Assembly (NCBI RefSeq): GCF_003725735.1
Contig: NZ_RJTM01000128.1
Location: 1-42,264 of the forward strand
Direction of reading: 5' to 3'
DNA: 42,264 nucleotides
Source: Sinomicrobium pectinilyticum
Lineage (GTDB): Bacteria > Bacteroidota > Bacteroidia > Flavobacteriales > Flavobacteriaceae
The position numbers and the translations under genes are program-made. A model generated the notes under the pieces. The model was given only the letters and a program-made list of their open reading frames with translations. It was not told the DNA's origin and ran no database searches. Of this stretch, positions 13,468 to 16,839 are shown in pieces. Position 1 is the stretch's first letter. Each line of letters opens with the position of its first letter.

Positions 13468-13550
13468 CTAAGCCCGGGGCCCTGTTCCGGTTTCCTGGAC
13501 GGATATAGGACCTCCTTTTATATAGTTATGAGAAAAGTAGACGGGCTTAG
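13468..13550. repeat. Inverted repeat enclosing the merC/plus-gene convergence
   Basis: Arms CTAAGCCC (13468-13475) and GGGCTTAG (13543-13550) are perfect 8-bp complements around a 67-base loop that is itself rich in G and C (GCCCGGGGCCC at 13472-13482). The right arm covers the stop codon of merC. It may end transcription of the convergent genes, although no T run follows either way. Confidence 0.4.
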
Positions 13551-13942
13551 TGTTTATGTCTGAATTTTTTAAGGTATTTCCAGTTATAATAATGGGCCAT
13601 GGCAATTCCCAATGCCCCGACAGGCGTGAGAACGGCTTCCCATAATTCGTGTATTTCAAAACGGCTCAAAGCTATAAGTATAAATCCGCTTACGGCCAGT
13701 ATAAGCGGTCGCTTTTTATGGTGGTACCTGGTATAAGAAGGCCATAAGGATAAAACGGCCAGGATCAGTCCGGTGCCTATAAACCCCCATTCAATGATGG
13801 GATCGGCCAGAAATGCCAGTCCTCCTAATGTTGAAAATGTGATAATAATAGGGAACACAGCACAGTGTACTGCACATAAAAGCGATGCGGAAAATCCGAG
13901 ATAATCATACCAGTAACGGTAACCCACTTTATTTGAATCCAT
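13547..13942 (-). CDS. MerC family membrane protein
   Basis: The 131-residue product has four hydrophobic segments and a metal-ligand motif in the first one, CAVHC (Cys23, His26, Cys27), as in MerC proteins. MerC was described as an inner-membrane mercuric-ion transporter, but flavobacterial relatives near Zur-type genes are more likely linked to zinc or other thiophilic metals. I chose ATG 13942, since a longer frame to 13999 would run through the operator region. The C-terminus is rich in His, Lys and Arg. The gene diverges from the His-rich ABC operon. Its presumed -7 element overlaps an operator-like dyad, so co-control with that operon is likely. Confidence 0.8.
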   Translation of the reverse strand: MDSNKVGYRYWYDYLGFSASLLCAVHCAVFPIIITFSTLGGLAFLADPIIEWGFIGTGLILAVLSLWPSYTRYHHKKRPLILAVSGFILIALSRFEIHELWEAVLTPVGALGIAMAHYYNWKYLKKFRHKH

Positions 13943-13963
13943 AAATGCTACTTTGTTGCAAAT
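13943..13963. promoter_or_regulatory. Operator-like dyad A (probable Zur/Fur-family site)
   Basis: The core TGCTACTTTGTTGCA at 13946-13960 is a near-palindrome of form TGCnAC-N3-GTnGCA, and the outer bases extend the symmetry to 21 bases. It overlaps the -7 element facing merC. A near-identical copy lies 38 bases away. Confidence 0.6.
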
Positions 13964-13966
13964 ATA
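13959..13966 (-). promoter_or_regulatory. -7 element of the merC promoter
   Basis: The minus strand reads TATATTTG, a full match to TAnnTTTG. A TTG lies 23 bases upstream, longer than the usual 19. Transcription would start near 13952, giving a leader of about 10 bases. Operator-like dyad A overlaps this element. Confidence 0.55.
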
Positions 13967-13980
13967 TGTCAAAAAAATAT

Positions 13981-14001
13981 AAATGCTACCAAATTGCATT
14001 A
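13981..14001. promoter_or_regulatory. Operator-like dyad B (probable Zur/Fur-family site)
   Basis: The core TGCTACCAAATTGCA at 13984-13998 shares AAATGCTAC and TTGCA with dyad A, with only the middle four bases and the last bases differing. The outer arms AATGC and GCATT are exact complements. It covers the TTG -33 element of the promoter for the ABC operon. Confidence 0.6.
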
Positions 14002-14023
14002 ATAAAAGTGTTTGTTATCTTTG
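13994..14023 (+). promoter_or_regulatory. Promoter of the ABC-DUF3299-zur operon
   Basis: TTG at 13994-13996 is separated by exactly 19 bases from TATCTTTG at 14016-14023, a full match to the Bacteroidota promoter consensus. Transcription would start near 14030, 13 bases before the first ATG. Confidence 0.75.
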
Positions 14024-14042
14024 CCATTAAAAATAAACCGTA

Positions 14043-14669
14043 ATGATTGTTACAAAAGGCCTCTGTTTCAGCTATGATAAGGAGCAGTATTTCCGGTTTC
14101 CGGATATTGAAATAGAAAAAAAGGGACATTTGCTTATGCTGGGGGACTCCGGGGTAGGTAAGACTACCTTTCTGCACCTTCTTGCAGGATTGCTAAAACC
14201 GGCAGAGGGAACGGTAAGTATAGAGGGGACGGATATTGCAAAATTATCGCATCGCAAACTGGATAAATTTCGTGGCAGGCATATCGGTATAGTATTCCAG
14301 AAAGCACAGTTTATACATTCCCTTACCGTAGAAGAGAACCTTCTGCTCATACAAAATCTCTCCGGGGCGGGGCAGGACAAAGGCCGGGTGCACGCTATAC
14401 TGGAAAGGCTCAATATAGCTCAAAAGGCACATTCCAAAGGTACAAACCTCAGTGAAGGGCAAAAACAAAGGGTTTCCATTGCGGCGGCCCTGGTAAATAA
14501 CCCGGACGTTATCCTGGCAGACGAACCCACATCAAGTCTTGATGACAAAAACTGCACAGCGGTCACGGAACTGCTCAAAGAACAGGCACTGCAGACCAAT
14601 GCCAGTCTCGTGGTTATTACCCACGATCACAGAATAGCTTCACAATTTTCTAACAGCATCCGGTTATGA
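14043..14669 (+). CDS. ABC ATPase of a probable Zrg-type zinc transporter
   Basis: The 208-residue ATPase has Walker A GDSGVGKTT (residues 34-42), the Q-loop FQKAQF, signature LSEGQKQR (136-143) and Walker B VILADEP (156-162) with ITHD as H-loop. The signature has Glu in place of the usual first Gly (LSGGQ), seen in some LolD/MacB-like ATPases. Its stop overlaps the start of the permease gene as ATGA, so the two form one complex. Together with the His-rich permease and the DUF3299-like protein this matches the gene set that I recall from Zur-controlled loci of Vibrio and Pseudomonas (Zrg-type; PA4064-PA4066-like). The zinc role is inferred from context, not from this protein. Confidence 0.8.
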   Translation: MIVTKGLCFSYDKEQYFRFPDIEIEKKGHLLMLGDSGVGKTTFLHLLAGLLKPAEGTVSIEGTDIAKLSHRKLDKFRGRHIGIVFQKAQFIHSLTVEENLLLIQNLSGAGQDKGRVHAILERLNIAQKAHSKGTNLSEGQKQRVSIAAALVNNPDVILADEPTSSLDDKNCTAVTELLKEQALQTNASLVVITHDHRIASQFSNSIRL

Positions 14670-15943
14670 ACGTATATAAATTAGGTGTTAAGAATGCTTT
14701 GGCCAATCCGTTAAGCACGTTGTTAAGCATATTGCTGCTGGTCCTCAGTATAGGGTTGATCTCATTAATGTTTCAGATTACCAGGCAACTCGACAATAAA
14801 CTGGAGAAAAACATAAGGGGTATAGATATGGTTGTAGGGGCAAAGGGAAGCCCCCTGCAACTGGTGTTGTCCTCCGTTTTGCATATCGATGTCCCCACGG
14901 GAAATATAAAACTGAAAGAAGCCCGGAGGGTATCCCGGAACCCTCTGGTAAAACAGAGTATTCCGGTTTCTTATGGCGATAACTACAAAGGATACCGTAT
15001 ACTCGGTACCAGTAAGGATTTCCTGGAACTCTACGGGGCGGAGACCGGGGCAGGCAGGTTGTGGGAAAAACCTTTTGAAGTGGTTATCGGCGCTACTGTT
15101 GCGGATAAACTGCAACTGTCCCCCGGAAGTACATTCTCCGGCTCGCACGGTTTAATGGAGAACAGTGCGGAATCACACGATCACCACCCGTTTACGGTAG
15201 TAGGTATTTTAAAACCTACGAGTACCGTAGCTGACCAGTTGATCATCTGTAACCTGGAAAGTATATGGCTCGTGCATGACCACGGCGGGAGTGAAGAACA
15301 TCAGGAGGATGAACACGATCACGAGGAACATGCTCACGAAGACGGACATGACCATGAACATGAGCATGAGCACGAAGCGCATATCCGGGAAGAGGATAAG
15401 GAAATCACTTCCCTGCTGGTAAAGTTTAAAAACCCGATGGGTATGATAACCCTGCCGAGAATGATTAACGACAAGACCAATATGCAGGCAGCCCTTCCTA
15501 ATTACGAAATAGAAAGGCTGTCCAACCTCCTTAGTGCGGGCAGTAAGGCCATAACCCTTATAGCTGCGGTGATCATGCTGGTGTCCGGAATAAGTATTTT
15601 TGTAAATCTCTACAAAGCCGTACGCGAACGCAAATACGAAATGGCACTTTTGCGTACTTACGGGGCATCGCAATGGCAATTACTGCTTTCCATGCTGGTG
15701 GAGGGATTGCTCATCGGCCTGGTGGGATTTGTAGGCGGAATACTGCTGAGCAGGCTCGGGCTCCTGGTTTTAGGAGGCTATATCGAAGAGAGTTACCAAT
15801 ATGCCTTAGGCAGTGCCGGCATCATGAAAGAGGAGGTTTTTTTGTTTATCTTTACGATATTATTGACGATATTTGCTACGATACTGGCGGCAGTTCCCGT
15901 CTTTTATCTCAATGTATCTAAAATTTTGGCCAAGGATGATTAA
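14666..15943 (+). CDS. FtsX-like ABC permease with His-rich periplasmic loop
   Basis: The 425-residue protein has one N-terminal membrane helix (about 17-37), a large extracytoplasmic domain and three C-terminal helices (about 296-315, 340-370 and 390-415), the MacB/FtsX topology. The outside domain carries HDHH at 171-174 and a stretch at 204-239 with 13 His interleaved with Asp and Glu, a plausible zinc-binding loop. It also has the family motif DMVVGAKGSPLQLVLSSVLH near 54-73, typical of this permease group. It overlaps the ATPase gene by four bases and the next gene by eight. Import or export cannot be read from sequence; the Zrg relatives are proposed zinc importers. Confidence 0.82.
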   Translation: MNVYKLGVKNALANPLSTLLSILLLVLSIGLISLMFQITRQLDNKLEKNIRGIDMVVGAKGSPLQLVLSSVLHIDVPTGNIKLKEARRVSRNPLVKQSIPVSYGDNYKGYRILGTSKDFLELYGAETGAGRLWEKPFEVVIGATVADKLQLSPGSTFSGSHGLMENSAESHDHHPFTVVGILKPTSTVADQLIICNLESIWLVHDHGGSEEHQEDEHDHEEHAHEDGHDHEHEHEHEAHIREEDKEITSLLVKFKNPMGMITLPRMINDKTNMQAALPNYEIERLSNLLSAGSKAITLIAAVIMLVSGISIFVNLYKAVRERKYEMALLRTYGASQWQLLLSMLVEGLLIGLVGFVGGILLSRLGLLVLGGYIEESYQYALGSAGIMKEEVFLFIFTILLTIFATILAAVPVFYLNVSKILAKDD

Positions 15944-16376
15944 GAATGTTTTTTGGATAGGTGTGTTTTGTGTCTTTGCGGTTGTATCCGGAAAGGCGCA
16001 GGAGAAGGTTACCTGGAAAGATCTGGCAGATGTTACTTTTACTTCCCGGTATTTTGATACCACGGATGATTATTTTCTGGTTCCGGATTTCGGGCCGAAT
16101 GTAAAAGCACTGGAAGGAAAGGAAATATCCATAACCGGTTATTTTTTAAGCCTTTCCCCGGAAGAAGGCATATATATGCTTTCCCAGAACCCTATGGCTT
16201 CCTGTTTTTTCTGTGGAGGCGGCGGACCGGAGTCCGTACTGGAAATCAAATTTGAAAAGAAACCGGCCTTTAAAACAGATGAGGTCGTCACCATAACGGG
16301 TACATTGGAACTGAATGCCGATGATATCAACCACTGTAACTACATACTTAAGGAAGCAAGTGGTTTTGCATTGTGA
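15936..16376 (+). CDS. DUF3299-like exported protein
   Basis: The 146-residue product starts with a signal peptide (IKNVFWIGVFCVFAVVSGKAQ). The mature part has VTWKDLADV, PNVKALEGKEISITGYFLSL and a CFFC motif (Cys90, Cys93), followed by a strand region and HC at 133-134. This order, W-x-D-L, then ALxGKxVxIxGY, then a Cys-containing loop, is what I recognise as DUF3299, which accompanies the Zrg-type ABC genes in gamma-proteobacteria. The start overlaps the permease stop by eight bases, so it is translated with it. It probably acts in the periplasm with the transporter. The role, perhaps metal handling, is inference. Confidence 0.7.
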   Translation: MIKNVFWIGVFCVFAVVSGKAQEKVTWKDLADVTFTSRYFDTTDDYFLVPDFGPNVKALEGKEISITGYFLSLSPEEGIYMLSQNPMASCFFCGGGGPESVLEIKFEKKPAFKTDEVVTITGTLELNADDINHCNYILKEASGFAL

Positions 16377-16416
16377 AAGGAAATTCGTCAGTGATAAAGA
16401 ATTTTAATTGTAATCT

Positions 16417-16839
16417 ATGAATGCAGAAACGATACCTATGGATAAGAACGTAGAAGAGATGCTGAGGTCACATCGTTTGAAACGTACTTCGGCCCGGATA
16501 GAAATATTATCGCTGTTGCTGGAAAGCAGCCATACCATATCCTATAACGATATAAGTGAGGAATTGGGAGATAATTTCGATAAATCCACCGTATACCGTA
16601 CCCTGAACAGTTTTGAAGAGAAAGGGATAATTCACGCTGTGAACGATGGTAGCGGGGGGATCAAATATGCGGTGACAAAACAGGAAAGTGAGGATGCCCA
16701 TGTGCATTTCAAATGTGATAGCTGTGAGCAGACGTATTGCCTTCCGGATACAAAGATACCGCGTGTACATGCTCCGGACGGTTTCATTATAAACAGGTCT
16801 TCACTGCTTATCAACGGGACATGTAAATACTGTTCTTAA
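16417..16839 (+). CDS. Fur-family metalloregulator, probable Zur
   Basis: The 140-residue protein is a Fur superfamily repressor. The winged-helix DNA-binding part spans about residues 10-85, with LKRTSARIEILSLL and the recognition helix region DKSTVYRTLNSFEEKG. The dimerisation/metal part has HVHFKCDSC (His95, His97, Cys100, Cys103), Cys108, His119 and a final CKYC (Cys136, Cys139), giving the two CxxC pairs of the structural zinc site. It is the last gene of the divergent operon and follows the DUF3299-like gene by 40 bases. Context points to Zur over Fur or PerR. It probably binds the dyads at 13943 and 13981. The gene's stop overlaps the convergent DUF6787 stop by four bases. Confidence 0.85.
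   Translation: MNAETIPMDKNVEEMLRSHRLKRTSARIEILSLLLESSHTISYNDISEELGDNFDKSTVYRTLNSFEEKGIIHAVNDGSGGIKYAVTKQESEDAHVHFKCDSCEQTYCLPDTKIPRVHAPDGFIINRSSLLINGTCKYCS

Follow-up and report, generated by a model that had tools for sequence, protein, structure and literature searches.

The window, which is the whole stretch of DNA analysed here (42,264 nucleotides from Sinomicrobium pectinilyticum), contains five genes at positions 13547-16839; a Pfam search of the window proteins matched merC, an ABC ATPase, a permease and a Fur-family regulator, and the fifth gene encodes a predicted exported protein. The host is a marine-type bacterium. The features of the locus are as follows.

13547-13942, minus strand: merC, 131-aa membrane protein (PF03203, E 4.5e-24) with the motif C23-x2-H26-C27
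13946-13960, no strand assigned: candidate operator I, TGCTACTTTGTTGCA, adjoining the merC start, one mismatch to the consensus TGCAACnnnGTTGCA
13959-13966: merC −7-like box, TATATTTG, overlapped by operator I
13984-13998, no strand assigned: candidate operator II, TGCTACCAAATTGCA, two mismatches to the consensus
14016-14023, plus strand: operon −7-like element, TATCTTTG, 19 bp downstream of the operator II TTG
14043-14669, plus strand: ABC ATPase of the ZrgC/PA4064 type (PF00005, E 5.1e-33)
14666-15943, plus strand: MacB/FtsX-type permease of the ZrgB/PA4065 type (PF12704 MacB_PCD, 6.6e-13; PF02687 FtsX, 4.4e-13)
15936-16376, plus strand: predicted exported DUF3299-type OB-fold protein, 146 aa, with C90-F-F-C93 (profile comparison and structure model)
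16417-16839, plus strand: Zur-like Fur-family regulator (PF01475, E 6.6e-14) with HxHFxCxxC...YCL...CxxC

The gene set and its place agree with the first-pass annotation, as does the divergent arrangement, since coordinates and strands put merC on the minus strand opposite a four-gene plus-strand operon whose genes overlap or nearly abut. The start of merC lies most likely at 13942 and not at 13999, because the longer frame would run through an operator. No NCBIfam model reached its cut-off for the five proteins, a statement that for the ATPase covers the best 25 of 201 models.

Two palindromes, 38 bp apart, separate merC from the operon. Operator II spans a −33-like TTG in each of the two divergent promoters, at 13994-13996 on the operon side and at 13990-13992 on the merC side, and TATCTTTG fits the Bacteroidota −7 consensus, TAnnTTTG. 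We read the palindromes as candidate operators, by comparison among 81 permease loci (80 relatives and the window, up to 8 kb on each side, some on short contigs), because TGCAACnnnGTTGCA with at most one mismatch occurred 75 times in these loci vs 0 times in the reversed control; this agrees with the operator region that had been proposed to be common to merC and the ABC operon. Fifty-six of the 75 sites fall in a promoter region, either of merC or the ABC operon or of a regulator or COG0523 GTPase gene, and 38 bp is the commonest spacing among close site pairs (9/17). Twin Zur boxes and an overlap with the −35 element are described elsewhere, in the available text of PMC6103462.

The co-occurrence check suggested by the first-pass annotation was run on the same loci: merC was present in 45/81, a COG0523 GTPase in 34/81 and a Zur-like regulator in 33/81. 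One or more of these genes stood in 62 loci and none in the remaining 19, and their association with the permease exceeds chance. The linkage is not limited to Bacteroidota, as a Fur-family gene heads a Zrg operon in Phaeobacter and a MerC gene flanks one in Catenovulum. Where merC or a regulator gene lies nearby, 25 of 26 operons have an ABC-promoter site with at most two mismatches; 7 of the 52 other operons have one, compared with about 1/78 in Markov shuffles; among the 45 of these 52 that have no such site, 22 lie directly downstream of a COG0523 gene, and a de novo 8-mer search of operons lacking the box gave AT-rich words only. At the genome level, 31 exact sites vs 2 control sites were counted in 12 genomes picked for carrying the module, one of which had no exact site, while 146 genomes of the order gave 46 vs 8 (summed) and a loose pattern in the window genome gave 10 vs 6.

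Outside the ABC promoter, the genomes of the 12 relatives held 22 further sites. Eight lie ahead of a COG0523 gene: in 6 cases that gene follows immediately, and in 2 it stands third in an operon that opens with merC or hisI. Four lie ahead of DUF6660 genes that neighbour heavy-metal efflux genes, and four have no clear target; the 6 COG0523 genes, merC, hisI and DUF1826 were checked with Pfam, and the two third genes were assigned by likeness only. One site (L178) precedes a lipoprotein gene beside a TonB receptor and another (L173) is probably inside a gene. In the window genome, operator sites lie at a TonB receptor gene beside DtxR and ZIP genes and at a folE paralogue, and the COG0523 gene, at a separate locus, has two degenerate sites 36 bp apart. 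Zur control is known for folE genes and is reported for the chaperone YciC. These operator-linked COG0523, folE and TonB genes point to the zinc-starvation type that had been proposed for the locus. The available text of PMC9817125 places a zrg operon, znuABC and a TonB receptor under Zur. None of the 13 genomes searched yielded a ZnuA, and no ZrgA/DUF2796 protein exceeded the cut-off in 13 genomes (2 weak matches) or in 247 Bacteroidota (13 weak matches), as expected from the earlier claim that the DUF2796 protein is missing. The idea of a ZrgA-like lipoprotein encoded at another place in the window genome found no support (0/4 Sinomicrobium-type genomes, in a search with no positive control). 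Separately, box-linked lipoprotein genes of this kind were seen in 3 of the 21 regions fetched. Our literature search found no Zur regulon described for Flavobacteriia, and the available part of a paper on Riemerella ZntR mentions Zur for other bacteria only, so the sites offer a candidate zinc-starvation operator and regulon for this class.

The regulator combines the Fur-family fold with two CxxC motifs (PF01475 and alignment) and is linked through a single operator to a zinc-economy regulon, in keeping with the Zur-like regulator that the module was said to carry. Its NCBIfam score for PerR (40.5 bits) was slightly above that for Zur (30.3 bits, cut-off 167), and no Fur-family model met its cut-off. 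The protein is without the YxxC cysteine found in EcZur and in merC-linked regulators, and in a tree with long branches and no PerR row it branched separately from EcFur and from the Fur of its own genome (100/96). Zinc is very probably its effector.

The exported protein, whose N-terminus is signal-like as judged by eye, gave no direct Pfam match to PF11736 (DUF3299) at E 0.1, and its own genome gave no DUF3299 match at E 0.01. When its family was aligned by hhalign with Pfam-recognised DUF3299 proteins, the match was 98.5% (E 3.8e-15); those proteins in turn match 4hsp (E 6.4e-16), which is PA4066 and has an OB-like fold. Among 16 DUF3299 loci that were fetched, 15 held a gene matching the operon's own profile and 13 a homologous permease, and Cys90 was kept in 12/12 cases. 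The structure model (pLDDT 89) gave OB-fold matches, 4hsp not being among the 50 listed, and a PDB search with the family returned nothing meaningful. By profile comparison we class the protein as a divergent DUF3299 relative. The DUF3299-type partner named in the first-pass annotation stands on profile, shared cysteine, OB fold and place after the permease, though not on a direct Pfam match.

MerC scored 85.5 bits against PF03203 (cut-off 27.6), and an Asp, the CxxHC motif, a Pro and a C-terminal His were invariant in all 44 MerC rows longer than 100 aa from the permease loci. It is probably an inner-membrane zinc carrier, and we lean slightly towards import as its direction. The permease model (pLDDT 83.9) has a MacB/Lol-like fold with four TM segments and a large domain in the periplasm, with Foldseek matches to MacB, LolCDE and HrtBA; within that domain lies a disordered His-rich loop at about residues 204-244 (pLDDT below 50 at residues 207-239). 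A His-rich loop, defined as at least 5 His per 50 residues, was present in 80/81 permeases, while counts of 4, 3 and 3 His per 50 residues were obtained for the three permeases seen next to an annotated DUF2796 gene, so that the proposed replacement of the missing binding protein by the loop stands as a tendency among three cases. We put at even chances that the ABC pair moves zinc within the periplasm and is not an importer of the classical kind.

Taken together, operators, regulon, profile match and the absence of ZnuA and DUF2796 lead us to describe the module, from sequence comparison, as a Zur-type, His-loop variant of the Zrg/PA4063-4066 systems coupled to MerC. What the comparison establishes is the gene set, the candidate operators, the likely regulon and the predicted folds. 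We consider it likely that this is a zinc-starvation module under Zur repression, in which, when zinc is ample, the zinc-loaded regulator would sit on the twin operators, cover the −33 region of both promoters and touch the merC −7 box, silencing its own gene together with merC and the ABC operon. Under zinc shortage the regulator would release the operators, and MerC would then probably carry zinc over the inner membrane through CxxHC in cells with no detectable ZnuA, the TonB receptor and the COG0523 zinc chaperone, under the same operator, acting before and after it. The ABC pair would work as a MacB-type machine in which cytoplasmic ATP drives the periplasmic domain while the His-rich loop gathers zinc. 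Together with the DUF3299-type protein, the pair would hand this zinc on to an acceptor in the periplasm, either MerC or secreted zinc enzymes.

Other readings give the ABC pair a different task. If it were a classical zinc importer, as the first-pass annotation and the authors of the V. cholerae ZrgA work suggest, the permease would move zinc from the loop into the cytoplasm, which would suit the lack of ZnuA, the loop in 80/81 permeases and, in the available text of PMC9820375, the requirement for V. cholerae ZrgA in zinc-poor medium when znuA is missing. However, the 4-TM MacB/Lol-like fold is unlike known metal importers, as the same text says of ZrgB, single zrgE knockouts are reported there to have no effect, and in the available part of PMC11481552 the P. 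aeruginosa PA4065 mutant data are read as export; we regard classical import as unlikely. The pair might instead work with the DUF3299 protein to furnish secreted enzymes, for example the alkaline phosphatase PhoA, with zinc. A phosphatase gene lies just downstream in 13/81 loci (PF00245 checked on one), and it heads the operon in 4 of 9 plasmid regions chosen from 106 records (Deinococcus, Allomeiothermus, Rhizobium and Paracoccus), all four of which carry a DUF3299-like gene of the CPFC type (profile match 98.6%, E 1.2e-15), but none was seen in 68/81 loci, the window included, and common zinc or phosphate control could explain the pairing, so that envelope metallation seems unlikely.

Export of a metallophore, free or with its metal, would fit the permease fold and the pyochelin-cobalt export argued for PA4063-PA4066 (available part of PMC11481552), and the genome offers a possible substrate: a pinensin-type lanthipeptide cluster with a siderophore-type TonB receptor, located elsewhere and framed by the same operator; among the relatives, L144 and L170 hold a lanthipeptide cluster. 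Yet this type of cluster encodes a C39-peptidase ABC exporter of its own and turned up in just 2 Sinomicrobium-type genomes, whereas the ABC operon is widespread; the window operon has no metallophore gene, and a role in handling metal is suggested by the kept loop and by the DUF3299 partner, all of which makes such an exporter doubtful. The lanthipeptide may itself be a zincophore, a candidate to which the shared operator points. Tentatively, and with a probability well below even, the same switch could drive a ribosomal zincophore whose core is rich in His and Asp. Zinc-starved cells would make it, release it through the C39-peptidase ABC transporter and take it up again through the TonB receptor; MerC would import the zinc, and the MacB-type pair and DUF3299 protein would handle zinc or spent peptide in the periplasm, with no import of their own. 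A locus for mercury or another metal, with a regulator sensing that metal and MerC importing mercury, would account for the MerC family name and the PerR score slightly above Zur; against this, no mer-type gene was recognised among the frames at 10.5-20.2 kb, judged by eye with 9 of them scanned by Pfam, and the same operator precedes COG0523, folE and TonB receptor genes, and we hold it to be very improbable.

With the zinc-starvation module as the preferred reading, the kinship proposed in the first-pass annotation is seen in an ATPase, a MacB-type permease and a DUF3299 partner within one operon. As judged from the available text of PMC9817125 and PMC9820375, Vibrio ZrgABCDE shares these three components and Zur control, whereas the window operon is without the DUF2796 protein ZrgA, bears its His-rich loop on the permease, includes merC and the regulator in the module and uses a different operator. 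The window likewise holds equivalents of PA4064, PA4065 and PA4066 of P. aeruginosa, but PA4063 is missing, and the function there is argued to be pyochelin-cobalt export (available parts of PMC11481552 and PMC8561739). The permease-borne loop and the phosphatase pairing provide handles on import, export or delivery by such systems. COG0523-linked zinc-starvation clusters resemble the loci in which COG0523 occurs (34/81), directly upstream of the ABC genes in 22 of the 52 operons of the other form, although the window genome keeps its COG0523 gene at another locus. Finally, the window MerC lies above the Pfam cut-off of its family and differs in standing under zinc-type operators with no mer genes seen alongside; its CxxHC is invariant among the rows compared, all of them from permease loci. 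Despite its mercury name it probably handles zinc, and the role of MerC proteins outside mercury operons becomes testable.

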